Positions 19,717 to 46,073 of a stretch of DNA of 64,000 nt are shown here, one piece after another (the first letter of the stretch is position 1; the number at the start of each line of letters is the position of its first letter). Source of the stretch: Brachybacterium faecium DSM 4810 (lineage in GTDB: Bacteria; Actinomycetota; Actinomycetes; Actinomycetales; Dermabacteraceae); NCBI GenBank assembly GCA_000023405.1, contig CP001643.1:2728001-2792000 (forward strand), given 5' to 3'. The notes below the pieces were generated by a model. The model was not told where the DNA came from, made no database searches, and was given only the letters and a program-made list of their open reading frames with translations. Made by a program: the position numbers and the translations under genes.

Positions 19717-19733
19717 TTGTCGGACAGTCGGAC
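19717..19733. promoter_or_regulatory. candidate osmoregulatory operator upstream of proV
   Basis: TTGTCGGACAGTCGGAC contains two copies of GTCGGAC with an 8-base period. The same element, differing at two positions, lies at 46057-46073 upstream of the ectoine genes. It is 267 bases before the proV start. Confidence 0.55.
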
Positions 19734-20000
19734 GGCCTGAGGCGACGCCGGTCCATGCGCCCCCATCGCTCCAGGCCATGCCGGGGATCGGAAGGCACCG
19801 CGAGAGGCCTCCCCGAGGGGCCCCGGAGACCGCGAAGACAGGTCCGGAGAGACTGAACACCCTGTTCCGAGGCATATTCCGAACCCGACGGGGCCTACGC
19901 TTCAAGGTGTCCCCAGGGTGCGCCGGGGACCCCTCGGGGGGACGGAGGGCCCACGGCGCGACCCGTACCACGCCACCCGTCCGCCGACGAAGGAGCCCAC

Positions 20001-21323
20001 GTGCCGCCAGTGATCACTGCGGAAGGCCTGTACAAGGTCTTCGGCCGCCGTCCCGCCCGAGGAGTCGAGGCGCTCGAACGCGGGCGCTCTCGGGCTGAGC
20101 TCCGCGAGGACGGCCTCACGGCCGCCGTGATCGATGCGAGCTTCAGCGTCGACCCCGGAGAGATCTTCGTGGTGATGGGGCTGTCGGGCTCCGGCAAGTC
20201 CACCCTCATCCGCATGGTCAACGGCCTGCTGCCCGCGACCGCGGGCACGCTGCGCATCGGTGACGACGTGCTCTCCGACATGAGCGCCGCGAAGATCCGC
20301 GACGTGCGCCGCCGGCGCATCTCGATGGTGTTCCAGCACTTCGCCCTGCTCCCCCACCGCACCGTCGGCGAGAACGCCGCCTACGGCCTGCAGGTCAGCG
20401 GCATGAACCGCAGCGACCGCGAGGCCCGCGCCACCGAGGCGCTGAAGATGGTGGGGCTCGAGGGCTGGGGCGGATACCGTCCCGGCGACCTCTCGGGCGG
20501 CATGCAGCAGCGTGTGGGCCTGGCCCGGGCGCTCGCTGCGGACACCGACGTGCTGCTGATGGACGAGGCGTTCAGCGCCCTGGACCCCCTGATCCGCCGC
20601 GACATGCAGGATCAGCTCGCGGACCTCCAGCAGCACCTGGACAAGACGATCCTGTTCATCACCCACGATCTGAACGAGGCCATGCGCCTCGGCGACCGGA
20701 TCGCGATGATGCGCGACGGCCGGATCGAGCAGATCGGCACCTCGGACGAGATCCTCAACGAGCCGGCCAACGACTACGTGGCCCGCTTCATCCAGGACGT
20801 GGACCGCTCCCGGGTGCTCACCGCGAGCACCGTCATGGAGCACCCGGCCCAGACCCTCGGCAGCGAGCAGGGCCCCCGCACCGCGCACAAGATGCTGCGC
20901 GAGACGCAGAACCCCTGGCTGATCGTCCTGAAGCGCGACCGCACCCCGGCGGGCGTGCTGTGGGAGGACGACGTCGCGGCGGCCGTGAGCGACGGCCGCG
21001 ACGACCTGCCCTGGTCGACCGTCCACGAGATGCCCGTCGTCTCGCACGACACCCCGGTCGCGGAGCTCTTCACGCTCTCGGCGCAGCATCTCAGCCCGCT
21101 GGTGGTGGTGGACGACGAAGGCCGCTTCGCCGGCGTCGTCCCCCGGGTCACGCTCCTCACCGCCGCCGGTGTCGGCCTCGGCGAGAACGGCTCCGACGCC
21201 CCCGCGGACGGCCCGGACCCCGGCGCCGGCCCCGGCCCCGGCCCCGGCCCCGGCCCCGGCCCCGAGGACGATCCCGATTCCCCTGCTCTCCACTCCACCG
21301 ACGCCCTGGGAGGTGACCGATGA
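20001..21323 (+). CDS. proV: glycine betaine/proline ABC transporter ATP-binding protein
   Basis: A 440-residue ATPase that energises uptake of glycine betaine or related osmolytes. Walker A is GLSGSGKST (about 59-67), the signature is LSGGMQQRVGLARA and Walker B is VLLMDEAFSALDP. QHFALLPHRTV and the about-30-residue insertion before Walker A (ALERGRSR region) are typical of ProV/OpuAA. Two C-terminal CBS-like repeats (about 280-395) fit the ionic-strength sensor of this family. An odd Gly-Pro tandem tail, encoded by a CGGCCC-type hexamer repeat at about 21220-21262, follows. GTG start after GAAGGAG. Its last bases overlap the permease start (ATGA), giving a proVWX operon. Confidence 0.94.
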   Translation: MPPVITAEGLYKVFGRRPARGVEALERGRSRAELREDGLTAAVIDASFSVDPGEIFVVMGLSGSGKSTLIRMVNGLLPATAGTLRIGDDVLSDMSAAKIRDVRRRRISMVFQHFALLPHRTVGENAAYGLQVSGMNRSDREARATEALKMVGLEGWGGYRPGDLSGGMQQRVGLARALAADTDVLLMDEAFSALDPLIRRDMQDQLADLQQHLDKTILFITHDLNEAMRLGDRIAMMRDGRIEQIGTSDEILNEPANDYVARFIQDVDRSRVLTASTVMEHPAQTLGSEQGPRTAHKMLRETQNPWLIVLKRDRTPAGVLWEDDVAAAVSDGRDDLPWSTVHEMPVVSHDTPVAELFTLSAQHLSPLVVVDDEGRFAGVVPRVTLLTAAGVGLGENGSDAPADGPDPGAGPGPGPGPGPGPEDDPDSPALHSTDALGGDR

Positions 21324-22231
21324 CCCCGCAGGACGATTCCTTCATGCCCCGCGTGCCGGTCGGCGAATGGGCCGACAGCGCCATCGACTGGCTGAAGGCG
21401 AACCTCTCCTGGCTGTTCGACGCCTTCCGCACCGTGATGGGCTTCCTGGTCGACAACCTCACCGACCTGCTGCTGCTCGTGCCCGCGCTCGTGGCGATCC
21501 CGGTGTTCGCCCTCATCGCGCTGACGCTGCGCTCCTGGAAGCTCGCCGTGGGCACCGTGATCAGCTTCGCGCTCGTGCTCTCGATGGACCAGTGGGAGAC
21601 GATGATGCAGACCATGGCGCTGGTGCTGGTCGCCACCGCCTTCGCCGTGCTCATCGCGGTGCCGCTGGGCGTCCTCGCCTCCCTCAACAGCACGGTGAGC
21701 GCGATCGTCAAGCCGGTCATGGACTTCATGCAGACCATGCCCGCCTTCGTCTACCTGATCCCGGCGGTCACCTTCTTCTCCATCGGAGTGGTCCCCGGCA
21801 TCTTCGCGACCATCATCTTCGCGCTGCCCCCGGGGGTGCGGATGACCGAGCTGGGGATCCGTCAGGTGGATTCCGAGACCGTCGAGGCCGGCGAGGCCTT
21901 CGGCGCGACCCCCTGGCAGATCCTCCGCGGCATCCAGCTGCCGCTGGCGATCCCCACCATCATGGCGGGCGTCAACCAGGTCATCATGCTCGCGCTGTCC
22001 ATGGCCGTGGTCGCCGGCATGGTGGGTGCGGACGGCCTGGGCAAGGAGGTCGTGCAGGCGATCTCGACCCAGAACCTGGCGCTCGGCGTCGAGGCCGGTC
22101 TCAGCGTGGTCGTGCTGGCCGTCTTCCTCGACCGCCTCACCGCGGCCCTCGGCAACCCCGGCGACTACCGGACCTCGCTGATCGCCCTGACCCAGCGCGC
22201 GATCGCTCAGCGCGCCACCACCACGGTCTGA
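21320..22231 (+). CDS. proW: glycine betaine/proline ABC transporter permease
   Basis: A 303-residue inner-membrane permease with about seven helices. The binding-protein-dependent transport loop reads EAGEAFGATPWQILRGIQLP, the coupling-helix (EAA) motif that contacts the ATPase. MVGADGLGKEVV and MDFMQTMPAFVYLIP are typical of ProW/OpuAB. The start overlaps the proV stop by four bases, so translation is coupled. The Trp/Leu-rich N-terminal segment (SAIDWLKANLSWLFDAFRTV) is also a hallmark of this family. Part of the betaine-uptake operon. Confidence 0.94.
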   Translation: MTPQDDSFMPRVPVGEWADSAIDWLKANLSWLFDAFRTVMGFLVDNLTDLLLLVPALVAIPVFALIALTLRSWKLAVGTVISFALVLSMDQWETMMQTMALVLVATAFAVLIAVPLGVLASLNSTVSAIVKPVMDFMQTMPAFVYLIPAVTFFSIGVVPGIFATIIFALPPGVRMTELGIRQVDSETVEAGEAFGATPWQILRGIQLPLAIPTIMAGVNQVIMLALSMAVVAGMVGADGLGKEVVQAISTQNLALGVEAGLSVVVLAVFLDRLTAALGNPGDYRTSLIALTQRAIAQRATTTV

Positions 22232-22286
22232 TCCGGCAGACCCCGCACGACTGCCCGATGATCACCCCACGAAAGGAACACTGATC

Positions 22287-23246
22287 ATGACGACACGACG
22301 AAATCCCTTCGCTCCCCGCTCCCTCGGCGCCCGCTCCGCGGCCCGCCGTCCGATCAGCCGCCGCGCCGCCCTCCTGGGCGGAGCGGGCCTGATGGGCATG
22401 GGCCTGGCGGCCTGCGGCTCCGACGGCGGCAACGGCGGCGGCGAGGGCGGCGGCGGCGAGACCATCACCCTCGGCTACATCCCGTCGTGGACCGACGGCC
22501 TGTCCACCGCCTACCTGCTCGACAACCGCCTCACGGCGATGGGCTACACGGTGGAGCACGAGCCGATCACCGAGGCCGGCGTGCTGTACGCGGGTCTCGC
22601 CCAGGGCGACGTGGACATGTTCCCCTCCGCCTGGCCCGAGGTCACCCATGCCTCCTACATGGAGGAGTACGGCGATTCCATCGAGGACCTCGTCTCCTAC
22701 TACGAGGGCGCGGTGCTGAACCTCTCCGTCCCCGAGTACGTGGACATCTCCTCGATCGAGGAGCTGGTGGGCCAGGCCGACCGCTTCGGCGGCCGCATCG
22801 TCGGCATCGAGCCGGGCGCCGGCCTCACCGAGGCCACCCAGGAGAGCGTCATCCCCGGATACGGGCTCGATGACTACGAGCTGGTCACCTCCTCCACCCC
22901 CGCGATGATCACGGAGCTGGAGAACGCGATCGACGCCGAGGAGGACATCGTCGTCACGCTGTGGACCCCGTTCTGGGCCATGCCGGCGTACTCGATGAAG
23001 GCGCTCGAGGACCCCGAGGGCCACTTCGGCGAGCCCGAGTCGCTGCACCACCTGGGCCGCGACGGCTTCGCGTCGGACTTCCCCGACGTCGCCGAGTGGA
23101 TCGCCGGCGCGACCATGACCGACGAGGAGTTCGGCTCGCTCGAGGACAAGGTCGTCAACGAGTTCGGCGAGGGCCAGGAAGCCGAGGCCGTCGAGGCCTG
23201 GCTCGAGGAGAACCCGGACGTGCTCCCGCCCGTCGAGGGCGAGTGA
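22287..23246 (+). CDS. proX: glycine betaine/proline ABC transporter substrate-binding lipoprotein
   Basis: A 319-residue extracytoplasmic binding protein. The signal peptide has a twin-arginine-like start (ISRRAALLGG) and a lipobox LAACG, so it is tethered to the membrane. After a Gly-rich spacer the OpuAC fold begins at ITLGYIPSWTDGLSTAYLLD. The segments MFPSAWPEVTH, GIEPGAGL and TLWTPFWAMPAYSMKALEDP supply the aromatic residues that normally cage the quaternary ammonium group. RBS GAAAGGA lies before ATG. It is the last gene of the operon, followed by a 23-bp terminator stem. Confidence 0.94.
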   Translation: MTTRRNPFAPRSLGARSAARRPISRRAALLGGAGLMGMGLAACGSDGGNGGGEGGGGETITLGYIPSWTDGLSTAYLLDNRLTAMGYTVEHEPITEAGVLYAGLAQGDVDMFPSAWPEVTHASYMEEYGDSIEDLVSYYEGAVLNLSVPEYVDISSIEELVGQADRFGGRIVGIEPGAGLTEATQESVIPGYGLDDYELVTSSTPAMITELENAIDAEEDIVVTLWTPFWAMPAYSMKALEDPEGHFGEPESLHHLGRDGFASDFPDVAEWIAGATMTDEEFGSLEDKVVNEFGEGQEAEAVEAWLEENPDVLPPVEGE

Positions 23247-23291
23247 TCTCGCCCGGGAGATGAGCATCCCCGCGGAGCACCGCGGGCACTC

Positions 23292-23340
23292 ACGGAGAGC
23301 GGGCCGGTCGCGACAGTGTCGCGACCGGCCCGCTCTCCGT
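23292..23340. terminator. 23-bp terminator between proX and the convergent oxidoreductase gene
   Basis: ACGGAGAGCGGGCCGGTCGC and the following bases pair perfectly with the right arm around a three-base centre. It sits between convergent genes and can stop transcription from both sides. Confidence 0.85.
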
Positions 23341-23389
23341 TCTCCTCGGCGTGCTGTGCGCAGCGCGCTGCGCTCGGCCGGCGCGCCGC

Positions 23390-24490
23390 TCAGCGGGCGA
23401 CGGCCACCTCGCCGCCGGCCTCGGCCGAGGCGTAGCAGGCGTCGATGACCTGGGCGCGGCGCAGGGCCAGCGAGCCGTCGTGCGCGGCGGTGTCCCCGGA
23501 GCGCACCTTCTGCAGGAAGTCGGCGACCGCGGCGGCGTGGTGGCCGTCCTCGCCCACCGCGGGCTGGAGCTCCGCGGGCATCCCGGCGACCTCGGTCCAC
23601 ACCGTGATCTGCGGGCGCGCCGCGTCGCCGCCCCATTCGATGTGGGCGCCGCCGTCGGCCCCGTAGAGGGTCACGTAGCACAGGTCGTGCGGGATCCACT
23701 GGGCCCAGCTGGACTCCAGCAGCATGGTGCCGCCGCCGTCGAGGCGCAGGAAGGCGGTGGCGAGGTCCTCGACCTCGAAGGGGACGCCCTCCTCGACCTG
23801 TGAGACGCCGAAGCCGGAGCCGCCGCGGCCCAGCGGGCCGAACTCGGCGTGGGTGGACGCGGAGACCGCGGTGACCTCGGGCTCGCCCATGAGGTGGAGG
23901 GTCATGTCGAGCATGTGGATGCCGATGTCCATCATCGCGCCGCCGCCCGCGCTCGCGGCCTTGGTGAACCACGTGCCCAGCCCGGGGATGCCCTGGCGGC
24001 GCACCCAGCCGGTCTTGGCGTAGTAGAGCTTGCCCAGCACGCCCGAGTCGACCACGGACTTCAGCGCCGTGACGTTGCCGCGGCGGCGATGGTTGAAGGA
24101 CACGTCCAGCACGCGGCCGGCCGCGCGGGCGGCGGAGACCATGTCCGCCGCGGCCTCGCCGGTCTCCGCCATCGGCTTCTCGGCGATCACGTGCAGGCCC
24201 GCCTCGAGGGCGTGGACGGCCATCGGACGGTGGAGGAAGGTGGGCGTGGCGATCGAGACGACGTCGAGCTCCGCCTCGGCGATCATCTGCTTCCAGTCCT
24301 GGTAGCGGCCGGGCACGTCGTGCTCCTCGCCGAAGCGGTCCAGGAGGTGCTCCTCCATCGCCGAGAGCGCGACGAGGTCGACGGTGGGATCGGCGGCGTA
24401 GGCGGCCACGTGCTGCTGGCCGGCCCAGCCCAGGCCGATCACTCCGGCGCGCAGCCTGCGCTGCCCGCCCTCCGGGGTGGCGTCCGTCAT
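23390..24490 (-). CDS. Gfo/Idh/MocA-family oxidoreductase
   Basis: A 366-residue NAD(P)-dependent dehydrogenase. The N-terminal Rossmann fold begins RAGVIGLGWAGQQHVAAY. The family signature EKPMAETGE contains the catalytic lysine, and GGGAMMDIGIHMLDM in the C-terminal domain holds the conserved histidine. Family members oxidise or reduce sugar, inositol or amino-sugar carbons. The gene is transcribed in the same direction as, and 86 bases after, the ROK regulator, across from a sugar-import operon. A role in converting an imported sugar is plausible, but the substrate is not determined. Confidence 0.92.
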   Translation of the reverse strand: MTDATPEGGQRRLRAGVIGLGWAGQQHVAAYAADPTVDLVALSAMEEHLLDRFGEEHDVPGRYQDWKQMIAEAELDVVSIATPTFLHRPMAVHALEAGLHVIAEKPMAETGEAAADMVSAARAAGRVLDVSFNHRRRGNVTALKSVVDSGVLGKLYYAKTGWVRRQGIPGLGTWFTKAASAGGGAMMDIGIHMLDMTLHLMGEPEVTAVSASTHAEFGPLGRGGSGFGVSQVEEGVPFEVEDLATAFLRLDGGGTMLLESSWAQWIPHDLCYVTLYGADGGAHIEWGGDAARPQITVWTEVAGMPAELQPAVGEDGHHAAAVADFLQKVRSGDTAAHDGSLALRRAQVIDACYASAEAGGEVAVAR

Positions 24491-24576
24491 GATGCGTGGT
24501 TCCCTTCGATCGGTGGTCGGGTCCCCGGCCGCCGGGCGGCGGTCGGGAGGGTGTCAGGAATGTCCGGGGAGGACTC

Positions 24577-25803
24577 TCACACGTCCGGTGCGAGCAGGTC
24601 CAGCGGGTCCTCGCGCAGGCGTGCCAGGGCGAGCTCGATCGCGCCGTGCACCACCACGTCCCGGCCGAGCGCGCTGGCTTCGAGCCGCGGGTGCGGCGGG
24701 GTGGAGATCCGCGGCAGGGCGGCGCGGGCGTGGACGAGCACCGGCTCGCTGGCCTCGGCGATCGCGCCGGCCACGACCACCAGCTCGACCCCGAGCAGGC
24801 TCGAGAGGATCGCCGCGATCCGGGCCAGGCGCTCGCCGATGCGCGCGAGCACGGCACCGGCGAGCGGGTCGCCGTCCCGGGCGGCGGCGAAGACGTCGAC
24901 GGCGCTGAGCGTGGACGCGGGCACGGCACCGAGCGCGGGAGAGGTCTCCCCCGCCGCGAGCGCCTCGAGGGTCCAGCGCCGGGCGAGCGCGGCGACGCCG
25001 TCGGCCCCGCGGTCATCGCCCATCACCACGTCGAGGAAGCGCATCTCGCCGGCCCCGCCCTCGGCGCCGCGCAGCAGGTGGGAGTCGACCACGAGGCCGG
25101 CACCGAAGCGCTCCCCCATCAGCAGGGCGGCGAGGTGGGGGCTGTCGGCGCCCGCGCGCTCGGCGAGCGCGGCGAGGTTGGCGTCGTTCTCCACCACCAC
25201 GGCACCCTCGAGCGCCTCGACGAAGCCGGGGTTCATGGCGGGCCAGTAGATCGTCCCGCCGCTCGGCGAATGCCCGTCGGCGTCGACCGGGGCGGGGACG
25301 CCGACGACGGTCAGCAGGCGGCGTCGGCGCGCGGCGCCGGCCTCCTCGAGCACCTGGTCGAGGAGGCGGCGGACGGTCTCCACACGCACCTCGGCCGCGG
25401 CGGCGCCCACCTCGACGTCGGTGCCCTCGATCGTCCCGCCGAGGGTGCTGCGGGCGGTGGCGAGCTCCCTGCCGCGCAGGTCCGCGGCGCGGGCGGTGAG
25501 GGTGTGCTGCCCGGCGTCGACGGCGAGCAGGACGGCGGCGTCCTCGCGCAGCGCGTAGTGCCGGGCGGGGCGGCCGCGCTGGACGGCGCCGGCGGCCCGG
25601 GCCGCGGAGACCTCGTGGAGCAGGCCGGCCTCCTCGAGCTCCGCGCACACCCCGAGCACGGTGGCGCGGGTCAGGCCGGTCGCGGACATCGCGTCCGCCG
25701 CGGTGAAGGCGTCCACGCGCAGGGCGTGCTGCATGAGCGCCTGCCGGTTGGCGCGCCGCATCAGCTGCGGCGAGCTCGCCCCTCGATCATGCGCTGTTGA
25801 CAT
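24577..25803 (-). CDS. ROK-family transcriptional repressor (NagC/XylR type)
   Basis: A 408-residue protein with an N-terminal winged helix (LRVDAFTAADAMSATGLTRA, then VLGVCAELEEAGLLHEV) and a ROK sugar-kinase-like domain (VDAGQHTLTARAADLRG, VENDANLAALAERAGA, VVVAGAIAEASEPV). The zinc-binding CxCGxxGC motif of classical ROK proteins is absent, which is seen in some regulators of the group. It binds a sugar effector and represses the divergent operon; an imperfect dyad at 25831-25863 lies between them. Start ATG 25803. The oxidoreductase gene lies downstream on the same strand. Confidence 0.92.
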   Translation of the reverse strand: MSTAHDRGASSPQLMRRANRQALMQHALRVDAFTAADAMSATGLTRATVLGVCAELEEAGLLHEVSAARAAGAVQRGRPARHYALREDAAVLLAVDAGQHTLTARAADLRGRELATARSTLGGTIEGTDVEVGAAAAEVRVETVRRLLDQVLEEAGAARRRRLLTVVGVPAPVDADGHSPSGGTIYWPAMNPGFVEALEGAVVVENDANLAALAERAGADSPHLAALLMGERFGAGLVVDSHLLRGAEGGAGEMRFLDVVMGDDRGADGVAALARRWTLEALAAGETSPALGAVPASTLSAVDVFAAARDGDPLAGAVLARIGERLARIAAILSSLLGVELVVVAGAIAEASEPVLVHARAALPRISTPPHPRLEASALGRDVVVHGAIELALARLREDPLDLLAPDV

Positions 25804-25830
25804 GCGCCGTTCACCGCCCCCATACTTCCG

Positions 25831-25863
25831 ATAGACCGTAAATATAACGCCTTACGTATCTAT
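25831..25863. promoter_or_regulatory. ROK-type operator with overlapping promoters
   Basis: ATAGACCGTAA and TTACGTATCTAT form an imperfect dyad with a 10-base A/T-rich centre, a local low-GC island in a GC-rich region. TATATT on the minus strand (25841-25846) could be the -10 of the repressor. On plus, TTGACA at 25797-25802 with CATACT 18 bases later could drive the import operon. The repressor probably binds here. Confidence 0.6.
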
Positions 25864-25912
25864 GGTCGCATCAATCCCGCGAGTCCGCACACACATCGCG
25901 AAGGAGACGAAG

Positions 25913-27187
25913 GTGTCATCCTCCCCCGGAGAACCCGGACCGTTCACCCGCCGCAGCCTGCTGGCCGGAGCCGGCGGCGCGCTCGCCGCGACCGCCCTGT
26001 CCGCCTGTGCAGGGGCGAGCGGCGCTTCCGAGCTCACGCTCTACCAGTCCAAACCCGAGGCGATCCCCCGCTTCTCGCAGCTCGCGGCGGAGTTCTCCTC
26101 CTCCCAGCAGCGCTTCGCCGTCCAGCACGACATCGCCACGAACCTCTCGGCGAGCTTCGTGCGCAACAACCCGCCGGATCTCGGCTGCCTGAACTACAAC
26201 CTCGAGATGGGCCGCTTCATGGAGCGCGGCGCGCTCTCGGACCTCTCGGACCTGCCCGAGGCGGGCCGGATCCGTGAGGACGTCGCGGAGCTCGCCGACT
26301 GGTACCCCACCTATGAGGGCCGCACCAGCGTGCTGCCCTACTCGGTGACCGCCGCCTCGGTGATCTACAACCGCCGGATCTTCGACGAGCACGGCCTCGA
26401 GGTGCCCACCACCTGGGAGGAGATGCTCGCGGTCTGCGAGACGCTGCAGGCCGCGGAGGTCACCCCCATCTACGCGACCTTCCTCGATGCGTGGACCGTG
26501 GCCCAGGGCCTGTTCGACTACACCGTCGGCGGCCTCGTGGACGTGCGCGCGTTCTACGCGGCGATGACCGAGATCGGCGAGGACGTCGGCCCGGAGTCCG
26601 AGGTCTCCTTCCAGCGCACCCTGCTGGAGCCGGTGCAGCGCATGACCGAGCTCGTCGCCTTCACCAACCGCGATGCGAACAACCGCGCCTACGGCGACGG
26701 CAACACCGCGATGGCCCAGGGCGAGGCCGCGATGTACTTCCAGGGGCCGTGGGCCTTCGGCGAGATCGAGAAGGCCGGCACGGACGTGGAGCTGGGCACC
26801 TTCCCGCTCCCGGTGACCGACGATCCCGCCGATCTGAAGGTCCGCGTGAACATCGACCTCTCGCTGTGGATCCCGGAGGCGGCGAACGAGCAGGAGGGTG
26901 CCCGGGAGCTCGCGCAGTTCCTCATGCGCCCCGAGGTGCAGGACCCCTACAACGCGGAGTTCCTCGCCTTCGGCACCACCGAGGACGCCCCGCCGGTGAC
27001 CGACGAGCGGATCGTCGAGATGCAGCAGTACTACGACGAGGGCCGCTTCTACATGGGCGCCTCGCAGTTCATCCCGAACTCGATCCCGGCCGAGAACTAC
27101 ATCCAGTCGATCGCCGGCGGCGCCGATCCCGAACCGGTCCTGGCGCGCATGGACGCCGACTGGGCCCGGCTCGCCTTCCGGGAGTGA
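25913..27187 (+). CDS. sugar ABC transporter substrate-binding lipoprotein
   Basis: A 424-residue extracytoplasmic solute-binding protein of the MalE/UgpB type. GTG 25913 is preferred because AAGGAG lies seven bases upstream. The signal peptide has TRRSLLAGAGG followed by lipobox LSACAG. The mature protein shows the usual family patterns: YSVTAASVIYNRRIFDEHGL, VPTTWEEMLAVCETL, GEAAMYFQGPWAFGEIEKAG and the final TPxW-like region. It captures an oligosaccharide, most likely an alpha-glucoside given the GH13 enzyme at the end of the operon. First gene of a four-gene unit under the ROK operator. Confidence 0.92.
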   Translation: MSSSPGEPGPFTRRSLLAGAGGALAATALSACAGASGASELTLYQSKPEAIPRFSQLAAEFSSSQQRFAVQHDIATNLSASFVRNNPPDLGCLNYNLEMGRFMERGALSDLSDLPEAGRIREDVAELADWYPTYEGRTSVLPYSVTAASVIYNRRIFDEHGLEVPTTWEEMLAVCETLQAAEVTPIYATFLDAWTVAQGLFDYTVGGLVDVRAFYAAMTEIGEDVGPESEVSFQRTLLEPVQRMTELVAFTNRDANNRAYGDGNTAMAQGEAAMYFQGPWAFGEIEKAGTDVELGTFPLPVTDDPADLKVRVNIDLSLWIPEAANEQEGARELAQFLMRPEVQDPYNAEFLAFGTTEDAPPVTDERIVEMQQYYDEGRFYMGASQFIPNSIPAENYIQSIAGGADPEPVLARMDADWARLAFRE

Positions 27188-27218
27188 GCACGCCATGACA
27201 CAGCAGCAAGGAGCGTCG

Positions 27219-28145: not shown

Positions 28146-28147
28146 TC

Positions 28148-29954: not shown

Positions 29955-32771
<2,817 letters not shown>

Positions 32772-33600: not shown

Positions 33601-33615
33601 GAGGCCGCGGGAGGC

Positions 33616-35421: not shown

Positions 35422-35532
35422 GCGTGCCCCCTCCTGCGCGCCGCGCCGACATCGGGTGCGGTCTCGCGCCCCCGCTGAGGAGCCTAGCCGGTGCCGCTCC
35501 CCTGCCCCGCGCGGAGCGGAGGGAGCTCGTGC

Positions 35533-37631: not shown

Positions 37632-37632
37632 C

Positions 37633-38481: not shown

Positions 38482-38696
38482 GCAGGTCTCCGATGCGGGA
38501 CGGGGTCAGGAGCGGTGGGGCCGACGGGCGGCTCGGGGTCGTGCTGCGGGGCGCGCCGGGAGGCGGGGCGCCGCACCGGCTGCATGCTCGGGATCATCAC
38601 CGCTGGGGCGACCATATCGAGACGTGCGCGAGAGGCGAGCGCCGCCGGCCGCCCGGTGAGGAACGACGCACGGGCCGGCTGCGCGAGACTGGGGGC

Positions 38697-39032
38697 ATGA
38701 GCACCGCAGACCTCGCCCATGGCATCGCCGCTCTCAGCCGCTGGATCGATGAGGGCAACCGCGGCCGCGACCCCGAGGCGGCGACCTGGGCGCGGCTGGC
38801 GAAGATCACCGAGGAGGCGGGCGAGGTGGTGGCCGCGCAGATCGGCGCCACCGGCCAGAACCCGCGCAAGGGCGTCACCCACACCGCGGGCGATGTCGAG
38901 GAGGAGCTGCTGGACGTGGCCCTCACCGCGCTCGCGGCGCTCGAGCATCTGCGCGGGCACGACGAGCGCTCGCTCGCCCTGCTCGAGGAGAAGCTCGCGC
39001 GGACCCTGCAGCGCGCCGGCCTGCGCGGCTGA
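38697..39032 (+). CDS. MazG-like nucleotide pyrophosphohydrolase
   Basis: A 111-residue all-alpha protein. The metal-binding pattern of the MazG superfamily is visible: LAKITEEAGEVVAAQ supplies the EExxE part and VEEELLDVALTALAALEHL the ExxD part. It matches short single-domain MazG-like proteins, which hydrolyse non-canonical or excess NTPs to NMP and pyrophosphate. Start ATG 38697 with a weak GGGGG upstream. Divergent from the DsbA-like gene and convergent with the kinase gene. Confidence 0.88.
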   Translation: MSTADLAHGIAALSRWIDEGNRGRDPEAATWARLAKITEEAGEVVAAQIGATGQNPRKGVTHTAGDVEEELLDVALTALAALEHLRGHDERSLALLEEKLARTLQRAGLRG

Positions 39033-39103
39033 GCGCCGGCGCCGGTCAGCCGCTGCGCCGGCCCCGACGCTGCCCGCCCGTGATCCGGCGGCCGCGGCGC
39101 CGG

Positions 39104-40042
39104 TCAGCCGGTGGTGTCGGTGGTGAGCTCGATGGCGCGCAGCAGGCGCTCGAGGTCGTCGGCCCGGCCCGAATGCTGGGCCTCCCAGAAGTAGGAGGCG
39201 ACCAGTCGTGCGAAGGAGATCGTCTCGGCGCGGTCCGCGTCCGCGCCCGCGGCCTCGCAGAACGCCTCGACCACGCCGCGTATCGCCTCTCGCGGCCGGG
39301 GCGCCTCGAGCACGCCGCCGAGCACGCTGCGCACGACGGTGTGGGCCTCGAACTCGACCGGCCCGCAGAGGTAGCCGGGGTCGATCGCGACCCAGCTGCC
39401 GTCCGCGCGCCGCAGCACGTTCTCGAGGCTGAGGTCGCCGTGGGTCATCGTGGTCGAGGAGTCCTCCGCGAGCTCGTCGATGATCTCCGCGGCCAGCTCC
39501 CCCGCCCCGACCGGGATCGGCAGCGCCGCGGCCACCGCCCGGGCGTGCTGCGCCTGGAACGCCTCGCCCCAGGAGCGCGAGGTCTCGGCCAGGCGCGGGG
39601 CGCCCGACGGCGCGGGGACCGTGGCGATGCGCCGCGCCACCTCCCCCGCGATCCGCGCGGCGTCGACGACCTCGACGACCTCGGGGTGCTCGAGGAGCGT
39701 CGCGGTCTCGAGCCGTTCGATGAGCAGCGCCTGCTCGTCCCCGTCGGCGCGCAGCAGGTCCACCACCCCGTGGCCCGCGAGCGCGGAGAGGGCCGTGGCC
39801 TCGAGGGCCGCGTCCGCGATCGGGGAGACGAGCTTGAGCGAGGCGCGCACGCCGTCCTCCGTGCGCACGGGCAGCACGATGCTCGTGCCGCCGACCGCTG
39901 GTTCGCCGTCCGTCTCGAGGCCCCAGCGCCGGCACAGCCGCTCGGCGTGCCCGGGAAGGGCGTCGAGCCAGGGCCCGGTGGACCGGTCCTGGTGGAGCAG
40001 CCGCCGGCGGAAGGCTCCGGGGATCTGCAGCGGGCGTGTCAT
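39104..40042 (-). CDS. aminoglycoside/hydroxyurea-type phosphotransferase (APH(6)-like)
   Basis: A 312-residue kinase-fold protein. The catalytic loop is THGDLSLENVL and the metal-binding aspartate lies in VAIDPGYLCGP. The lead-in WLDALPGHAERLCRRWGL and TSIVLPVRTEDG match the APH(6)/streptomycin and hydroxyurea phosphotransferase family. ATG 40042 is preferred over upstream in-frame starts, which read through a low-complexity Arg/Pro segment. Chromosomal members of this family in actinobacteria often do not confer resistance, so a housekeeping small-molecule kinase is equally likely. It lies 64 bases downstream of the MmyB-like regulator on the same strand. Confidence 0.88.
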   Translation of the reverse strand: MTRPLQIPGAFRRRLLHQDRSTGPWLDALPGHAERLCRRWGLETDGEPAVGGTSIVLPVRTEDGVRASLKLVSPIADAALEATALSALAGHGVVDLLRADGDEQALLIERLETATLLEHPEVVEVVDAARIAGEVARRIATVPAPSGAPRLAETSRSWGEAFQAQHARAVAAALPIPVGAGELAAEIIDELAEDSSTTMTHGDLSLENVLRRADGSWVAIDPGYLCGPVEFEAHTVVRSVLGGVLEAPRPREAIRGVVEAFCEAAGADADRAETISFARLVASYFWEAQHSGRADDLERLLRAIELTTDTTG

Positions 40043-40106
40043 CACCGCATCATCCCAGGGTCCCGGCCGCCCGGCGCCGTCCTCCGAGGCACGGACCCGC
40101 GCCGTG

Positions 40107-40988
40107 TCAGCGCGTCGTGGGCCCGTGGTCTCCGGCCGGCGCCTCCTCCGTGGCGGCCCAGGTGGCGAGCATCCGCAGGGCATCCGCGCTGGGGGTGTCC
40201 GGTGCGGCGGCGTAGACCAGCAGCGTGAGGTCCGGATCCGAGGAGAGGGTCATCGCCTCGAAGCTCAGCTCCATCTCGCCGACCACCGGGTGATGCAGCT
40301 GTTTGACCCCGGTGCGGTGGAAGCGCACGTCGTGCGCGGCCCAGCGCCGGCGGAAGTCCTCGCTGCGGGTGGACAGCTCCCCGATGAGGTCCTGGAGCTT
40401 CTGGTCGTGCGGGTGGCGGCCGGCCTCCGAGCGGAGCATGGCGGCGATGTCGTCGGCCGCGCGCTCCCAGTCCACGAAGAAATCCTGCGCGGCGGGATCG
40501 AGGTAGATGAAGCGGGCGGAGTTCGCGGGCCGACGGGGGTCTGCCAGCGCCGGCGAGTACAGCGCCCGCGCCATCTGGTTGTGGGCCAGGTGGTCGAAGC
40601 GGGCGTTGCGCACCCAGGCCGGGGCGTCGGTGATCGCGTCGAGGACCTGCTGGACCACGGGCCGGATGGTGGCCGGGCGGGCCGAGCGGCGCCGTGCGGA
40701 GGTGCCGGCGGAGCGGCGGGCGAGGTCGAACAGGTGCACCCGCTCCGCCTCGTCCAGCTGGAGGGCGTCGGCGAGGGCCTCGAGCACCGCGTCGCTCGCC
40801 CCGGAGATCCTGCCCCGTTCGAGCCGGTTGTAGTAGTCCACGCTCACGCCGGCGAGCATCGCGACCTCTTCACGGCGCAGCCCCGGCACGCGGCGGGTGC
40901 CGCCGTACGCCGGCAGGCCGGCCTTGTCCGGGGTGAGCCGTGCGCGGCGCGAGGTGAGGAACTCACGGATATCGCCCTGGGGATTCAT
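40107..40988 (-). CDS. XRE-family regulator with MmyB-like ligand-binding domain
   Basis: A 293-residue protein. The N-terminal helix-turn-helix reads VPGLRREEVAMLAGVSVDYY and LERGRISGASDAVLEALADAL, the standard opening of actinobacterial MmyB-like regulators. The C-terminal part (about 105-275) has the PAS-like MmyB fold with WVRNARFDHLAHNQMARALYS and FDAW-type segments. This domain is reported to bind fatty-acid-like ligands. Such regulators commonly sit beside, and control, short-chain dehydrogenase and aldo/keto reductase genes. A palindrome 36 bases upstream of the start is the probable operator. ATG 40988. Confidence 0.92.
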   Translation of the reverse strand: MNPQGDIREFLTSRRARLTPDKAGLPAYGGTRRVPGLRREEVAMLAGVSVDYYNRLERGRISGASDAVLEALADALQLDEAERVHLFDLARRSAGTSARRRSARPATIRPVVQQVLDAITDAPAWVRNARFDHLAHNQMARALYSPALADPRRPANSARFIYLDPAAQDFFVDWERAADDIAAMLRSEAGRHPHDQKLQDLIGELSTRSEDFRRRWAAHDVRFHRTGVKQLHHPVVGEMELSFEAMTLSSDPDLTLLVYAAAPDTPSADALRMLATWAATEEAPAGDHGPTTR

Positions 40989-41023
40989 GCCTGGAGGCTA
41001 GCCCCGGCCGGCGGGACGAGCCA

Positions 41024-41038
41024 GGTACTGGCAGTACC
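41024..41038. promoter_or_regulatory. perfect palindrome GGTACTG-G-CAGTACC, probable MmyB-like operator
   Basis: A 15-base perfect dyad 36 bases upstream of the regulator start, where it would overlap the promoter. The sequence GGTACTGnCAG recurs upstream of the MFS exporter (43815-43825). Confidence 0.65.
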
Positions 41039-41075
41039 CGGGACCGCGGGGGACCCGCACCCGCCGCGGCCAGGT

Positions 41076-41234
41076 TCATCCGGACGGGGCGCGCCAGGCT
41101 CCCACGGCACGGTCGACGCAGACGGTCACGGCGGCGGCGACGTCGGTGGACGGATCCAGCAGCCACTGCAGCCCGATGCCGTCCATCGCGGCGGTGAGCA
41201 GCCGGACCTCGATCTGGATCTGTGCCTCGGCCAT
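41076..41234 (-). pseudogene. TetR-family regulator, C-terminal remnant
   Basis: The 52 codons before the stop read MAEAQIQIEVRLLTAAMDGI, then GLQWLLDPSTDVAAAVTVCV. This is the standard closing helix pair of TetR/AcrR ligand-binding domains (the LLDGLxLQWLLDP pattern). No DNA-binding domain is found upstream; the frame runs out into the aldo/keto reductase leader. The remnant suggests a deletion that fused the end of a regulator gene to the reductase gene. Confidence 0.6.
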
Positions 41235-41313
41235 CGGGGCGATGTCGCCGGCGTCGAAGGGGCGCTGACCGACGCACCGCCCCTCTCCTGCCGCCTGGTG
41301 AAGGGACTCCACG

Positions 41314-42285
41314 ATGAAGTACTCCGTTCTCGGCCCGAGCGGGATCCGCGTCTCGCAGATCTGCCTGGGCAGCGCCACCTTCGGCGTCGCCCCCACCTCG
41401 CAGGAGGCCGACGAGGTGGTCGGCGCGGCGCTCGATCTGGGCGTGACCTTCTTCGACACCGCGAACGTCTACGGCTCCGCGCCGACGTTCGATCGTCCCG
41501 GGCATCCGCCGGCGGCGCAGCGGGAATCGGCCGAGGAGATCCTAGGCCGCGCCCTCGAGGGGCGGCGCGACGAGGTGGTGCTGGCGACCAAATCCGGGGA
41601 GCGCCGCGTCGGTGCGGGGGCAGGCCTGTCGCGCCGGCACATCATCGGGCAGGTCGAGCAGAGCCTGCGCCGCCTGCGCACGGACCACATCGACGTCTAC
41701 TACGGCCATTTCCCGGATCCGCACACTCCGCTCGAGCAGACCCTCGCCGTCTACGACGACCTGATCCGACAGGGCAAGACCCGGTACGCGGCGCTGTCGA
41801 ACCATCCGGCGTGGCAGATGACCGAGGCGCTGTGGATCGCCGACGACCGCCGGCTGGTCTCGACCCCGGTCGCCGCGCAGGTGCAGTACAGCCTGCTGCA
41901 CCGCGGCCCGGAGGCGGAGCTCGTGCCCGCCTGCTCCCGCTTCGGGATCTCGATCGTGCCGTTCGCCCCGCTGCACGGCGGTCTGCTCGCCGACCTCTCG
42001 GTGCTGGAGCGGGAGATCTCCGGGGACCAGCGGTACGGCGGCGCCGGATTCTCCGCACAGGAGATCGCGGTGGCTCGCGCGCTGGACGGGCTGGCCCGCG
42101 AGTGGGGCCTCGAGATGCAGCAGGTCTCGCTCGCGTGGCTGCTCTCCCGCCCAGCGGTGGCGTCGATGATCGTCGGCGCCGAGACCGCCGAGGAGATGCG
42201 CGCCAACGCCTCGGCCGCCGAGGTGGAGCTCAGTGCGGAGCAGCTCGAGGCCGTCTCCGCCCTCACCGAGAACCGCCCAGCCTGA
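41314..42285 (+). CDS. aldo/keto reductase
   Basis: A 323-residue NADPH-dependent reductase of the (beta/alpha)8 fold. The catalytic tetrad is visible: Asp in FFDTANVYG with the following Tyr, Lys in LATKSGERR and His in VYYGHFPDPHTP. YSVLGPSGIRVSQICLGSATF is the family opening. It reduces aldehydes or ketones; the substrate is unknown. ATG 41314 follows AAGGGA. Upstream lies a TetR remnant and downstream a truncated Rossmann-protein start, so it is a survivor of a larger cluster. It is likely controlled from the MmyB-like regulator region. Confidence 0.93.
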   Translation: MKYSVLGPSGIRVSQICLGSATFGVAPTSQEADEVVGAALDLGVTFFDTANVYGSAPTFDRPGHPPAAQRESAEEILGRALEGRRDEVVLATKSGERRVGAGAGLSRRHIIGQVEQSLRRLRTDHIDVYYGHFPDPHTPLEQTLAVYDDLIRQGKTRYAALSNHPAWQMTEALWIADDRRLVSTPVAAQVQYSLLHRGPEAELVPACSRFGISIVPFAPLHGGLLADLSVLEREISGDQRYGGAGFSAQEIAVARALDGLAREWGLEMQQVSLAWLLSRPAVASMIVGAETAEEMRANASAAEVELSAEQLEAVSALTENRPA

Positions 42286-42313
42286 CCACCCCGTTCACGA
42301 AGGAGAGCTCCCC

Positions 42314-42352
42314 ATGGGCCGCATCCTCATCACCGGCGCGGCCCGGGGCGCT
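42314..42352 (+). pseudogene. truncated start of a Rossmann-fold (SDR/epimerase) gene
   Basis: After AAGGAG at 42299-42304, ATG 42314 begins MGRILITGAARG, the classic first strand and glycine-rich loop of a short-chain dehydrogenase or epimerase. Homologous character then stops and the frame passes into sequence belonging to the end of the convergent MFS gene. It appears to be the first 12-13 codons of a gene whose remainder was deleted. Confidence 0.5.
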
Positions 42353-42478
42353 CTCTCATGCAGAGAATCACCACCGCTCACGCAGCCGCGGCACCGAGCA
42401 TCCTCGCTGTCGCCCAGTCGGAGCTCGGACGCGGTGCGGGGAGGGGCCGGTGCTCGCACGCCCGGATCGCACCGCGCG

Positions 42479-43738
42479 TCACGCCCTGCTCCGCCGGGCA
42501 CGCCTGGCGAGGAGGGCCAGTGCGGTGGTGGGGATCAGCGTGAGCGCGAGGACGGTGGTGCCGACCGTGGCCGGCCCATCGAGGCCCAGCGGGGACTCGA
42601 GGGTGGAACCGGCGATCGGGGTGATGACGGCGGTGCCGAGGTTGAACGCGGCGACGCTGAGCGCGGACCCCAGCGAAGCCGCTGTCCCCGAGAACCGCAC
42701 GGCGAGGTGGATGAGCACCCCGTTCGCGCTCAGGCCGAACACGCCGAGGAGCGTGATCGCGGAGATCATCGCCCAGGCCTGGCTGGAGAACAGGAGGATC
42801 ACGGCCATCAGCGCGGTCGAGACCGCCGGGGTGATGATCGTGACGGCGTGCGGGCTGCTGTCCCCCAGCCGCCCGGCGACGAGGGTGCCGAGGAAGGAGC
42901 CGACGCCGAAGGCGGTGAGCACCAGGGGCACGACGGAGGCGGCGACGCCGGAGCGGTCGATGAGGACCGGGGCGATGAAGGAGTAGAGGGCGAGCACACC
43001 GCCGCTGGTGGTGACGCAGGCGAGCAGCACCAACCAGAGGCGGACGGAGAGGAGCCCGGCGAGGTCGGCGAGGAGCGAGGCCCCCGCCGCGGTGTCACGC
43101 TCGTCGCGCGGCACGCAGCGGAGGACCAGGACCGTGACGAGCACGGCCCCGACCGCCAGGGCCCAGAAGGTCCCCCGCCACCCCACCAGCTGCGCGATGT
43201 ATGCCCCGATCGGCACACCGAGGACGGTGGCCAGGGATCCGCCGGCGGCGACGACGGCGACTGCACGCGATCCCATCGCGGGGCCCGCGGCGCGGCTCGC
43301 GACGACTGCGGCGACGGCCCAGAACGCGCCCGTGGCGAGGCCCGTGAGGAGCCGGGCGATGACGATCTGCTCCACATCCGAGGCCAGCGCCACCCAGAGG
43401 TGGCCCACGACGAAGATGCTGAGCGCGAGCACGAGCGTGAAACGTGCGGAGAGCCGGGCGGTCGCCATCGTCATCACAGGCGCGCCGACGATCATCCCGA
43501 CGGCGAAGACGGTGATGAAGGATCCCACCCGTGCCAGCGACACCCCCAGATCGTCAGCGATGTCGGGCAGGATGCCGGCGACGACGAACTCCGTGGTGAG
43601 CATAAGGAAGGTGCCCACGGCGAGGACGTAGGCGACCAGCGGAAGGCGCCGGCGTGCGGCGGGCGCGGTTCCGGCGTCGGCCCCACCGGTGCGAACTCCT
43701 CCGCCTGTGTCCATGGTGTCCGTGGTCGTGGCTGGCAT
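42479..43738 (-). CDS. MFS drug/sugar efflux transporter (DHA1 type)
   Basis: A 419-residue protein with twelve membrane helices. ATG 43738 follows GAAGGAGAG. The DHA1-type motif EFVVAGILPDIADDLGVS in helix 1 and the proton/drug motif WRGTFWALAVGAVL in the middle resemble the AraJ/CmlA/YdhP exporters. It would expel a small molecule using the proton gradient. A half palindrome GGTACTGCCAG 77 bases upstream of its start matches the operator of the MmyB-like regulator 3 kb away, suggesting common control with the aldo/keto reductase locus. Confidence 0.92.
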   Translation of the reverse strand: MPATTTDTMDTGGGVRTGGADAGTAPAARRRLPLVAYVLAVGTFLMLTTEFVVAGILPDIADDLGVSLARVGSFITVFAVGMIVGAPVMTMATARLSARFTLVLALSIFVVGHLWVALASDVEQIVIARLLTGLATGAFWAVAAVVASRAAGPAMGSRAVAVVAAGGSLATVLGVPIGAYIAQLVGWRGTFWALAVGAVLVTVLVLRCVPRDERDTAAGASLLADLAGLLSVRLWLVLLACVTTSGGVLALYSFIAPVLIDRSGVAASVVPLVLTAFGVGSFLGTLVAGRLGDSSPHAVTIITPAVSTALMAVILLFSSQAWAMISAITLLGVFGLSANGVLIHLAVRFSGTAASLGSALSVAAFNLGTAVITPIAGSTLESPLGLDGPATVGTTVLALTLIPTTALALLARRARRSRA

Positions 43739-44153
43739 GGTCTCTCCTTCGTGGTGCGTTCTCGCCTTGCAGAACACCACGGTTCCGGCGCGGTGGAGAG
43801 ACCCGCTTGATAGGGGTACTGCCAGGGCATCCCTCGTAGCTGGCGTGCCTTCCCGACTGAGAGGGCACGCTGCCCTCCCACTGAGGCGCGATCCGGCCGG
43901 CACGGCGGCCTCAGCATGCGCTGCGGAGATCGCCCCGCCATGCGTCCACGCCGTTACTCCTCAACGGCGCAACAGTTCGGCCGATTACGCTCAGTCGTAC
44001 GCCGGGACGGGGAAACGGGCCCGCACCTCGCGCGAACACCGGTGGGCCGAGCACTCGATCCCTCCGACGGCGGCCCGACCCGACGTGCGGCACCGAGTGC
44101 CACACCCGCCGACAGAGCAGATTCCTCTGCCGCAGACCGGGACGTCTTCTCGG
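43739..44153. other. MFS promoter region and gap before tRNA-Lys; no gene
   Basis: Open frames here, including one antisense to tRNA-Lys that ends ARRGSNPRPAD, are tRNA shadows. The only element I recognise is the GGTACTGCCAG site at 43815-43825. Confidence 0.6.
43815..43825. promoter_or_regulatory. MmyB-like operator half site upstream of the MFS gene
   Basis: GGTACTGCCAG matches the left arm, centre and first three bases of the right arm of the palindrome at 41024-41038. It is 77 bases before the MFS start codon. Confidence 0.5.
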
Positions 44154-44225
44154 TGGGCCCGGAGGGGATCGAACCCTCGACCCGCGGATTAAAAGTCCGA
44201 TGCTCTACCACTGAGCTACAGGCCC
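44154..44225 (-). tRNA. tRNA-Lys (TTT anticodon)
   Basis: A 72-base cloverleaf on the minus strand. Acceptor GGGCCTG pairs with CGGGCCC with one G-T pair; D arm GCTCAGTGGTAGAGC; anticodon loop CTTTTAA gives TTT; T loop GTTCGAT; discriminator A. No encoded CCA. The outermost anticodon-stem pair is a mismatch. Confidence 0.93.
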
Positions 44226-44344
44226 CGTGCCCGCCGAGCGGGCCCGTCCATACTACCGGCGGGTGACCACGGCGAAGGACGCCGGGCAGCGGTGCGAGAC
44301 CGCTCCCCGGCGTCCTTCGAACGCGGCGGAGTCCGCCGGTGGGG

Positions 44345-45853
44345 TCAGGACTGTTCGGCGAGCTTGCGCTCGTCCTGGTAGTCGCAGACGTCCTCGTTCA
44401 CCCACACCTCGACGTTCTTGATCTCCGGCAGATCGGAGGCGACGAAGATCGGGTCCAGGCCCTGGGCGCGCTGGGCGTTGTAGTGCCGCAGCAGCTTGAT
44501 CGCGGTGGGCGCGAGGATCGCGATCACCACGAGGTTGATCAGGGCGATGAACACCATGGACACCCCGGCGATGGTCCAGGCGAGGTCCACGGCGATCACG
44601 GAGCCCATGAGCACCAGCGCCACCACGGCGACGCCGAAGGCGATGTGCCAGCCGCGCTTGGAGGTCAGGAAGTGCATGTTCGCCTCGCCGTAGGAGAAGT
44701 TGCCCAGCACCGAGGTGAAGGCGAGCAGGAACATGATCACCGCCAGCAGCACCGCGGACCAGGCGCCGAGGTTCGACGACAGCGACTCCTGCACCATGAC
44801 CAGGCCCTCACCGCCGGCGGAGACGTCCGGGAACGAGACCAGCACGATGAACGCGGTGATGGAGCAGATCAGCAGGGTGTCGAAGTAGACGCCGAGGGTC
44901 TGCACCAGGCCCTGCTTGACGGGGTGGCTGACCGAGGAGGTCGCCGCGACGTTGGGGACCGAGCCCATGCCCGCCTCGTTGGAGAGCATGCCGCGCTGGA
45001 CGCCGTTGACGATCACGGCACCCAGCCCGCCGCCGATCACGGCTTGCGGGTTGAAGGCCTCGACGACGATCTGCCCGAGCACGCGGGGCAGCTCGCTGAA
45101 GTTCATGCCCACGATGATGATGCCGATGAGCAGGTAGAGCGCCGCCATGATCGGGACCATGTTCTGGGCGACGTCCGCGACGCGGCGCATGCCGCCGAAG
45201 ATGATCCCGGCGGTCAGCAGCGCGAGCAGGATGCCGAGCACGGGCGCCAGCCACGGCAGGCCCTCGGGGTCGGTGTAGACCGCCACGGCGCCGCTCACGG
45301 CGTCGACGATGGTGTTGGCCTGCAGCGAGGTGAAGGCGAAGGCGAAGCAGAAGATGAACAGCACCGCGAAGAACGCGCCGAAGCCGCGCGAGCCCAGCCC
45401 GCGGTGGATGTAGAACGCGGGGCCGCCCTTGTAGGTGTCGTCGGCCCGGACCTTCCACAGCTGCGCGAGGGTGGACTCGATGAAGCTCGCGGCGCCGCTG
45501 ACCACGCACATGATCCACATCCACAGCACCGCGCCGGGGCCGCCGAGGAAGATCGCACCGGCCACGCCAGAGATGTTCCCGGTGCCCACCCGGGCCGCCG
45601 CCGAGACGGAGAACGCCTGGAAGGCGCTGAGGGACTTGGCGCGCTCGGTGCGCCGGCTGCCGTGACCCACCTCCTCGCGCTGGGCCTTCTGGGTGATGGC
45701 GCCGAACATCGCGGGGATCATCCGCACCTGCACGGCGCCGGAGCGGATCGTGAAGTAGATGCCGAGCACCACGACCACGGGCATCCCGGCCCAGGTCCAG
45801 AGCCAGCCCTCGGCGTTGCCGAGGAACTCGTTCAGTGATTCGAGGGGGTTCAT
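44345..45853 (-). CDS. alanine/glycine:cation symporter (AGCS family)
   Basis: A 502-residue sodium-coupled amino-acid importer. The AGCS signature region is visible: ARVGTGNISGVAGAIFLGGPGAVLW (shown in full in the protein at about residues 90-115), then FIESTLAQLWK and GGPAFYIHRGL, and later RGMLSNEAGMGSVPN. About eleven helices. ATG 45853 is preferred; upstream in-frame starts add a 41-residue Arg-rich segment with no homologous character. It imports alanine or glycine with Na+ or H+. It is divergent from ectA across 330 bases, so its expression might be influenced by the osmotic control region. Confidence 0.92.
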   Translation of the reverse strand: MNPLESLNEFLGNAEGWLWTWAGMPVVVVLGIYFTIRSGAVQVRMIPAMFGAITQKAQREEVGHGSRRTERAKSLSAFQAFSVSAAARVGTGNISGVAGAIFLGGPGAVLWMWIMCVVSGAASFIESTLAQLWKVRADDTYKGGPAFYIHRGLGSRGFGAFFAVLFIFCFAFAFTSLQANTIVDAVSGAVAVYTDPEGLPWLAPVLGILLALLTAGIIFGGMRRVADVAQNMVPIMAALYLLIGIIIVGMNFSELPRVLGQIVVEAFNPQAVIGGGLGAVIVNGVQRGMLSNEAGMGSVPNVAATSSVSHPVKQGLVQTLGVYFDTLLICSITAFIVLVSFPDVSAGGEGLVMVQESLSSNLGAWSAVLLAVIMFLLAFTSVLGNFSYGEANMHFLTSKRGWHIAFGVAVVALVLMGSVIAVDLAWTIAGVSMVFIALINLVVIAILAPTAIKLLRHYNAQRAQGLDPIFVASDLPEIKNVEVWVNEDVCDYQDERKLAEQS

Positions 45854-46056
45854 GACCACGACCGTAGCGGGGCGGCCCCTCCGCACCCCCGCTCCGCGCG
45901 GCTCCGCAGGAGCGCGAGAGGCTTTTGACTCTCGCGCGCGCGAGGATGTGTCCCACAACGCGGTCACGTGACGCACACCACACGCTCGGCGATCGAGGCG
46001 CGGGATCCGAGGTCAGAGCGCTGGCATCGTTGCAGGTCGGCACGAATGATCGACGG

Positions 46057-46073
46057 TTGTCGGACAATCGGAT
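46057..46073. promoter_or_regulatory. candidate osmoregulatory operator upstream of ectA
   Basis: TTGTCGGACAATCGGAT includes the palindrome TTGTC-G-GACAA and two GTCGGA-like units. It agrees with 19717-19733 upstream of proV at 15 of 17 positions. It is 111 bases before the proposed ectA start, in the region shared with the divergent symporter gene. Confidence 0.55.

Follow-up and report, generated by a model that had tools for sequence, protein, structure and literature searches.

Do two compatible-solute operons that lie 26 kb apart in an actinobacterial genome answer to the same regulator? The question is raised by a stretch of 64,000 nucleotides from Brachybacterium faecium DSM 4810 (GenBank contig CP001643.1, positions 2,728,001 to 2,792,000; hereafter the window), in which an initial annotation noticed a similar 17-bp element upstream of proVWX and of ectABC, and proposed a common regulator of compatible-solute import and synthesis that it could not name. 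How bacteria balance the making and the importing of compatible solutes is only partly understood. Comparison with related genomes supports the proposal and points to a candidate, a GntR-type protein with an FCD domain, encoded beside ehuBCDA, genes for an importer of the ectoine-uptake type. Judging from sequence comparison, we assign a probability of about 0.78 to the reading that this ehu-linked regulator of the FadR type controls a compatible-solute regulon through a shared palindrome, layered on control by MtrAB. For one genus, the analysis puts a name to a candidate regulator and adds a putative operator, five promoters as its targets and a further input of the MtrA type.

Both 17-mers (19717-19733 and 46057-46073) are in place in the window, where they share 15 of 17 positions; a third copy is absent from the 64 kb even if 3 mismatches are allowed. 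As described, the pro site contains GTCGGA(C/T) twice, eight bases apart; the ect site does not, its second unit being ATCGGAT. In the whole genome (one contig of 3,614,992 bases), the joint 17-mer pattern has only two sites at 0 mismatches, one more at 2 and seven at 3, and its reversed control has five matches. A 15/17 match was present in 44 of 500 pairs of both upstream regions simulated with a Markov-1 model, and 9 of 100 shuffles of the window yielded two matches to the fitted pattern with at most 3 mismatches. The likeness of the two 17-mers, taken alone, is weak; the element is counted as real because it is conserved in relatives, not because of this pairwise resemblance.

The invariant part of the element is an 11-bp palindrome, TTGTC-S-GACAR, which has no strand and is present as TTGTCGGACAG upstream of proVWX (19717-19727) and as TTGTCGGACAA between ectA and a divergent AGCS symporter gene (46057-46067). 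When 66 distinct sites from relatives are compared, the dyad holds without exception at each position from +-1 to +-4 (66/66), a count that is partly selected, the sites having been chosen by their likeness to the palindrome core. The direct-repeat reading, with an agreement per position of 12 to 59 of the 66 sites, is weaker than the dyad and was rejected; even so, the right-hand copy, in its degenerate form RTCSG, shows good conservation. An extension of the palindrome toward CGGATTGTCSGACAATCCG is partly conserved in the sites of relatives, and no significant covariation between the centre base and the +8 base was found in the 66 sites (Fisher p 0.094). Letter by letter, TTGT-CSG-ACAA fits both consensuses given in the accessible text of two earlier studies, namely, TNGTNNNACNA for operators of the FadR subfamily (PMC2230225), and TKGT-3-ACMA, described as common to many FadR-type proteins (PMC4494728).

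With regard to the B. faecium genome, each of the 22 TGTCSGACA cores (14 cores for the reversed control pattern) was scored with a matrix built from 72 sites of other genomes, with no own-genome site included. Five sites exceed 21 bits, all of them intergenic: ect (25.5 bits), pro (24.1), the gap between the regulator gene and ehu (23.4), an SSF-family symporter gene (22.7) and a second AGCS symporter gene, AGCS2 (21.3). The sixth-ranked site reaches 14.4 bits and lies inside a gene. Exact TTGTCSGACAA occurs three times, at ectA (46057 in the window), at the SSF symporter (C1:212098) and at an AGCS symporter (C1:2115590), and TTGTCCGACAG has a second copy that falls within an ATP-binding cassette (ABC) transporter gene. 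The initial annotation had named occurrence at many unrelated loci as an outcome that would speak against a common regulator; what the genome holds is five strong sites among 22 cores.

A sample of 38 Brachybacterium genomes, own included, extends this picture (genes outside the window were called with an in-house codon-usage script). The exact palindrome is present in 24 of the 38 at 48 sites, against 29 for the reversed control pattern, and 42 of the 48 fall into four classes: ectA (18), SSF (13), GntR regulator/ehuB (8) and AGCS2 (3). The motif is not spread over unrelated promoters in the genus, the remaining six exact sites lying elsewhere (L105, L107, L110, L121, L128 and L129), two of them inside called genes. 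When one mismatch is allowed, 19 of 22 ectA loci have a site at a distance of 138-187 bases upstream of the matched start; for proV, it is found 261-284 bases upstream in 19 of 27 loci, 15 of these 19 having the form TTGTCSGACAG. Conservation in relatives, which had been proposed as a check, is thus observed upstream of both genes in those that carry the regulator. Among the sites lying elsewhere, that at position 4071 of L110 (G011, a genome lacking the regulator) is an exact palindrome 22 bases before a gene for a 425-residue protein without NCBIfam match, and possibly reflects chance or another FadR-type regulator.

The candidate regulator gene (G000:C1:824984-825781) and ehuBCDA are transcribed divergently, and the gap between them holds the palindrome as well. 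The regulator gene was found in 24 of the 38 genomes. The palindrome is present upstream of it in 25 of 25 loci scored (G026 has two copies, and from G027, where the gene is split, one piece was used). Each of the 25 also has EhuB in divergent orientation (28/28 sequences, three of which repeat loci already counted). The four relatives scanned all show a GntR winged helix (PF00392) and an FCD domain (PF07729) above cut-off. The B. faecium protein, outside this Pfam scan, is 71-87% identical to seven of eight other aligned regulators, and 51% to the eighth. Its AlphaFold2 model has a mean predicted local distance difference test score of 83.6, and the best Foldseek matches are the GntR/FCD regulators 6za3, 7u5q, 3ihu and 4p9f. 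The predicted structure has the all-helical C-terminal fold of FCD regulators, which would place the protein in the FadR subfamily. The metal/ligand site of FCD domains is made of one Asp and three His. In the regulators compared, D155 and H159 are invariant (14/14) and the later His positions, read by eye, are variable or absent; judged in this way, the usual metal site looks incomplete. As for the importer, EhuC (198.2 bits, cut-off 196.95) and EhuD (227.6, cut-off 205.2) score above the limits of their models, and EhuA (342.9, cut-off 345.4) and EhuB (170.1, cut-off 190.9) below.

Two other identities were ruled out for this protein. It is not of the MocR type (EnuR/EhuR), carrying FCD instead of an aminotransferase-like pyridoxal phosphate (PLP) domain and scoring 21.6 bits with NF052286 (cut-off 480); nor is it of the MarR type (CosR/EctR), given its GntR/FCD domains, one MarR_2 match being below cut-off. 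In G027 (L156 and L158; L119), the regulator and SSF genes are each in two frames with intact operators, and a sequencing error is likely, since completeness is 85%. Near the regulator gene, L159 also encodes a potassium-channel-like protein with TrkA_N/TrkA_C (L159:2534-4192, + strand). A phosphoenolpyruvate carboxylase gene follows ehuA in two loci (L159:9501-12001 and L160:9753-11001); it could reflect aspartate supply toward ectoine, or mere neighbourhood.

The presence of the palindrome follows that of the regulator gene. With a threshold of at least 16 bits within 600 bases upstream (the SSF row of G029, with one upstream base, being dropped), regulator-bearing genomes have a site at 20/20 ect, 20/21 pro, 17/22 SSF and 5/6 AGCS2 promoters, i.e. 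62 of 69 when pooled. In genomes that lack the regulator, the counts are 0/2, 0/6, 0/2 and 0/4, respectively, hence 0 of 14. The pooled Fisher value of 4e-11 is not to be taken as a probability, because the ProV tree gives two independent contrasts. A matrix-free consensus scan of the upstream regions gives the same picture of co-occurrence.

The aligned promoters share a second conserved element, GTNAC-N6-GTNAC, offset from the start of the palindrome by +33 at ect, +38 at SSF and -23 at pro. In this respect the anatomy first described was incomplete, the repeat structure having been misread and this element overlooked. With at least 7 of 8 defined positions required and gaps of 2-12 compared, the repeat is found in 19/19 ect, 8/13 SSF and 7/19 pro promoters, these seven carrying the form GTGAC-N6-GTTAT. 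A gap of 6 is the commonest in all three classes alike, and a gap of 11 occurs in 14 of 19 ect promoters. In B. faecium, the repeats of ect and SSF match at 8 of 8 positions and that of pro at 6 of 8. The ect repeat is GTCAC-GTTTGC-GTTAC (46090-46105, + strand), beside an additional in-phase half site, GATAC (46079-46083), and the pro repeat is GTTGC-CGAATA-GTTAT (19694-19709, + strand). In the accessible part of a Streptomyces study, the MtrA site is given as GtnAcC-n5-GTnAcn, and ectABCD of S. venezuelae is reported as directly activated by MtrA (PMC13189361). The repeat in ect, SSF and pro fits this published box, and binding of MtrA is predicted there. The genome encodes MtrA (NF040689, 381.6 bits, cut-off 300) and MtrB (NF040691, 584.8 bits, cut-off 450), with LpqB beside mtrA/mtrB (LpqB models below their cut-offs, Gmad1 above). 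Furthermore, a GTNAY-N6-GTNAY repeat without palindrome is present in 5 of 6 proV promoters of regulator-lacking genomes, which are not mutually independent; simulation gives an expectation of 6-8/1000 per proV promoter. Since these palindrome-free promoters keep the repeat, the two elements are separable.

How might the two elements act together? The sites, their conservation, their occurrence together with the regulator gene, the architecture of the repeats and the presence of mtrA, mtrB and lpqB are read directly from sequence; for the proposed regulon, we infer binding, dimerisation, sign, ligand and transcription starts. A dimer of the regulator would bind TTGTCSGACAR at five promoters, namely, the regulator/ehu divergon, ectABC (with the divergent AGCS gene), proVWX, the SSF symporter and the second AGCS symporter. 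The protein may be a FadR-type repressor or dual regulator, responsive to a compatible solute and acting over MtrA-driven promoters. The operator at ehu follows, at a distance of about 30 bases, a -10-like TAGCGT that most of 11 aligned loci share; this position fits repression modulated by a compatible solute. Ectoine would be the natural guess for this ligand because of the linkage of the regulator to ehu. At ect, pro and SSF, the operator lies within about 40 bases of the MtrA-type repeat, which points to a tuning of osmotic activation by MtrAB. Such promoters would receive two inputs, turgor through MtrA and solute status through the FadR-type protein.

Several observations weigh against this proposal. 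The association between regulator and site represents only two independent contrasts in the ProV tree, albeit both concordant, and many positive sites had also served to train the matrix. Among the 69 promoters of regulator-bearing genomes, seven stay below threshold, namely, proV of G014, SSF of G014, G025 (15.4 bits), G027, G030 and G035, and AGCS2 of G035; for two of the SSF cases, the site exists outside the scored stretch (G027) or only 318 upstream bases were available (G030). Unusual distances were noticed for the ect site of G014 (17.7 bits, -269) and the pro site of G015 (-125). The own-genome scan was limited to intact TGTCSGACA cores, and sites with a broken core would escape it. 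The MtrA-type repeat stays under 7 of 8 in 12/19 pro and 5/13 SSF promoters, it is missing from AGCS2 (0/3) and nearly so from ehu (1/10), and gaps of 7 and 8 are also frequent in SSF (6 and 5 of 13). At ect, about 120 bases separate the operator from the inferred start downstream of it (conserved TA(G/C)CGT and ATG), which is no classical position for a repressor; from there the operator might impede or assist MtrA, or serve the AGCS gene on the other side. Finally, the SSF and AGCS symporters are placed by family, not by substrate.

Three other explanations have to be weighed against the ehu-linked regulator. That the two promoters resemble each other by chance, as the equally good matches in 44 of 500 simulated promoter pairs might suggest, is already refuted by conservation at orthologous promoters, and its probability is negligible. 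It is improbable, although more conceivable than chance, that a different regulator binds the palindrome and that the ehu-linked protein is a mere neighbour. The consensus is indeed described, in the accessible text, as common to many FadR-type proteins (PMC4494728), but the palindrome stands between the regulator gene and ehuB in all 25 loci scored, none of the 14 target promoters in genomes without the ehu-linked regulator carries it, and in 5 of 9 readable loci of distant regulators, all five from one genus, a near-identical palindrome still accompanies the regulator and ehu genes.

A shade less probable still is that the MtrA-type repeats alone give osmotic control, the palindrome at ect and pro being a fossil or serving other transcripts, e.g. 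that of AGCS. The position of the ect operator far upstream of the ectA start would agree with this, as would the AGCS neighbour of ectA in 21 of 22 loci and the retention of the repeat in 5 of 6 palindrome-free proV promoters, as opposed to 6-8/1000 simulations each. However, the palindrome is kept near letter-for-letter at ect and pro across regulator-bearing genomes, and each promoter class has a constant spacing between palindrome and repeat.

Among 396 genomes of the order, the close form of the regulator was seen only in Brachybacterium; matches with 37-42% identity are present in 11 genomes of four other families, and no match at 1e-35 was obtained in the seven same-family genomes listed from outside the genus. 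A protein search of genome contigs returned 17 loci, i.e. 14 from Brachybacterium, two from an Actinomycetales metagenome-assembled genome (87-88% identity) and one from Anaerolineae (29%). Of 10 loci fetched for distant regulators (35-39% identity) in other families, nine were readable, and all nine have the regulator gene divergent from ehuBCDA. The gaps of five of these, all from one genus, hold TTGTCTGACA(A/G), i.e. TTGTCTGACAA or TTGTCTGACAG; one of the others holds TTGTAGGACAA, and three have no close match. Six genomes of that other genus (g12) contain 11 exact palindromes. One belongs to regulator/ehu and another precedes an ABC operon with a weak likeness to EhuB; the other nine have no match to any query protein closer than 3 kb. 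None was found at ect or pro genes in the six genomes, where the presence of ectA was not searched. These distributions suggest that the regulon became wider within Brachybacterium, and the same regulator with its neighbour operon in several families, together with extra targets in one genus, makes a clear candidate for such an expansion. We lean slightly towards a scenario in which a local ehu regulator would have been promoted in Brachybacterium to a global one, the palindrome being planted beside pre-existing MtrA boxes, so as to combine turgor and solute status.

How does this candidate compare with known regulators? BusR carries an RCK_C domain that senses cyclic di-AMP. The protein considered here has FCD instead of this RCK_C sensor. 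What makes BusR, named in PMC5924519, comparable is that it belongs to the GntR type and represses a betaine importer. In the excerpts available for the other systems, CosR of Vibrio, a global regulator of compatible-solute genes, likewise acts on both ectoine synthesis and betaine/proline import (ectABC, betIBA-proXWV, proVWX and bccT3; PMC7876524), but it is of the MarR type, unlike the actinobacterial GntR/FCD candidate beside a putative ectoine importer with MtrA-type repeats alongside. EnuR/EhuR, a MocR repressor of ectoine uptake and catabolism, shares the GntR superfamily and the ehu linkage, but has an aminotransferase-like PLP domain where the present candidate has FCD, and the inferred regulon of the latter would cover synthesis genes (PMC8739950). 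The MtrAB-controlled ectABCD of S. venezuelae has an MtrA-type direct repeat upstream, as in Brachybacterium, where it is accompanied by a FadR-type palindrome that the accessible part of that report does not mention (PMC13189361). GntR1/2 of Corynebacterium share the GntR plus FCD architecture and the TNGTNNNACNA-type operator, but control gluconate and sugar genes, in contrast to the osmolyte regulon proposed here (PMC2230225). The accessible part of a review states that it is not known what signals EctR answers to (PMC5924519). In titles and opening lines of abstracts of the open literature, a scope outside which most subscription journals fall, we found no description of an FCD/GntR regulator of ehu, ect and pro genes, and nothing joining Brachybacterium, ectoine, operon and transcriptional regulator.

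Within the window, the pro locus comprises genes for a proV-type ATPase of a betaine/proline/choline transporter (20001-21323, + strand; PF00005 plus CBS; TIGR01186, 377.3 bits, cut-off 326.6), a proW-type permease (21320-22231, + strand; PF00528) and a proX-type binding protein (22287-23246, + strand; PF04069 OpuAC). At the ect locus, alignment points to a -10 element, TAGCGT (46168-46173, + strand), followed by ectA for diaminobutyrate acetyltransferase (46184-46735, + strand; TIGR02406, 167.3 bits, cut-off 120.6), ectB for a class-III aminotransferase (46832-48151, + strand; PF00202) and ectC for ectoine synthase (48264-48656, + strand; PF06339). The ectA start is probably at 46184, on the conserved ATG after the -10 element, which would make the transcript leaderless; 46196 is an alternative start. 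The divergent gene codes for an AGCS-family sodium/amino-acid symporter (44345-45859, - strand; TIGR00835, 392.3 bits, cut-off 272.65); it adjoins ectA in 21 of 22 ect loci and is a possible co-target of the ect operator.

Other sequence features were noticed around these promoters. CAGGTC/CAGGCC with flanks recurs near the operators (near 46038 in the window). Among upstream regions, 13 of the 22 for ect and 17 of the 27 for pro contain it; the core by itself is present 174 times across the window. TGACCTGC lies downstream of the SSF operator. Rfam gave no riboswitch at the five target promoters at gathering threshold. Elsewhere in the window, a guanidine-II riboswitch aptamer (17350-17394, + strand; 35.4 bits, gathering threshold 32) is found 15 bases ahead of the gene at 17410-18732. 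The product of this gene belongs to the Na/Ca-exchanger family and resembles ChaA, though with a score under the cut-off of the ChaA model; it is an unexpected partner for a guanidine aptamer.

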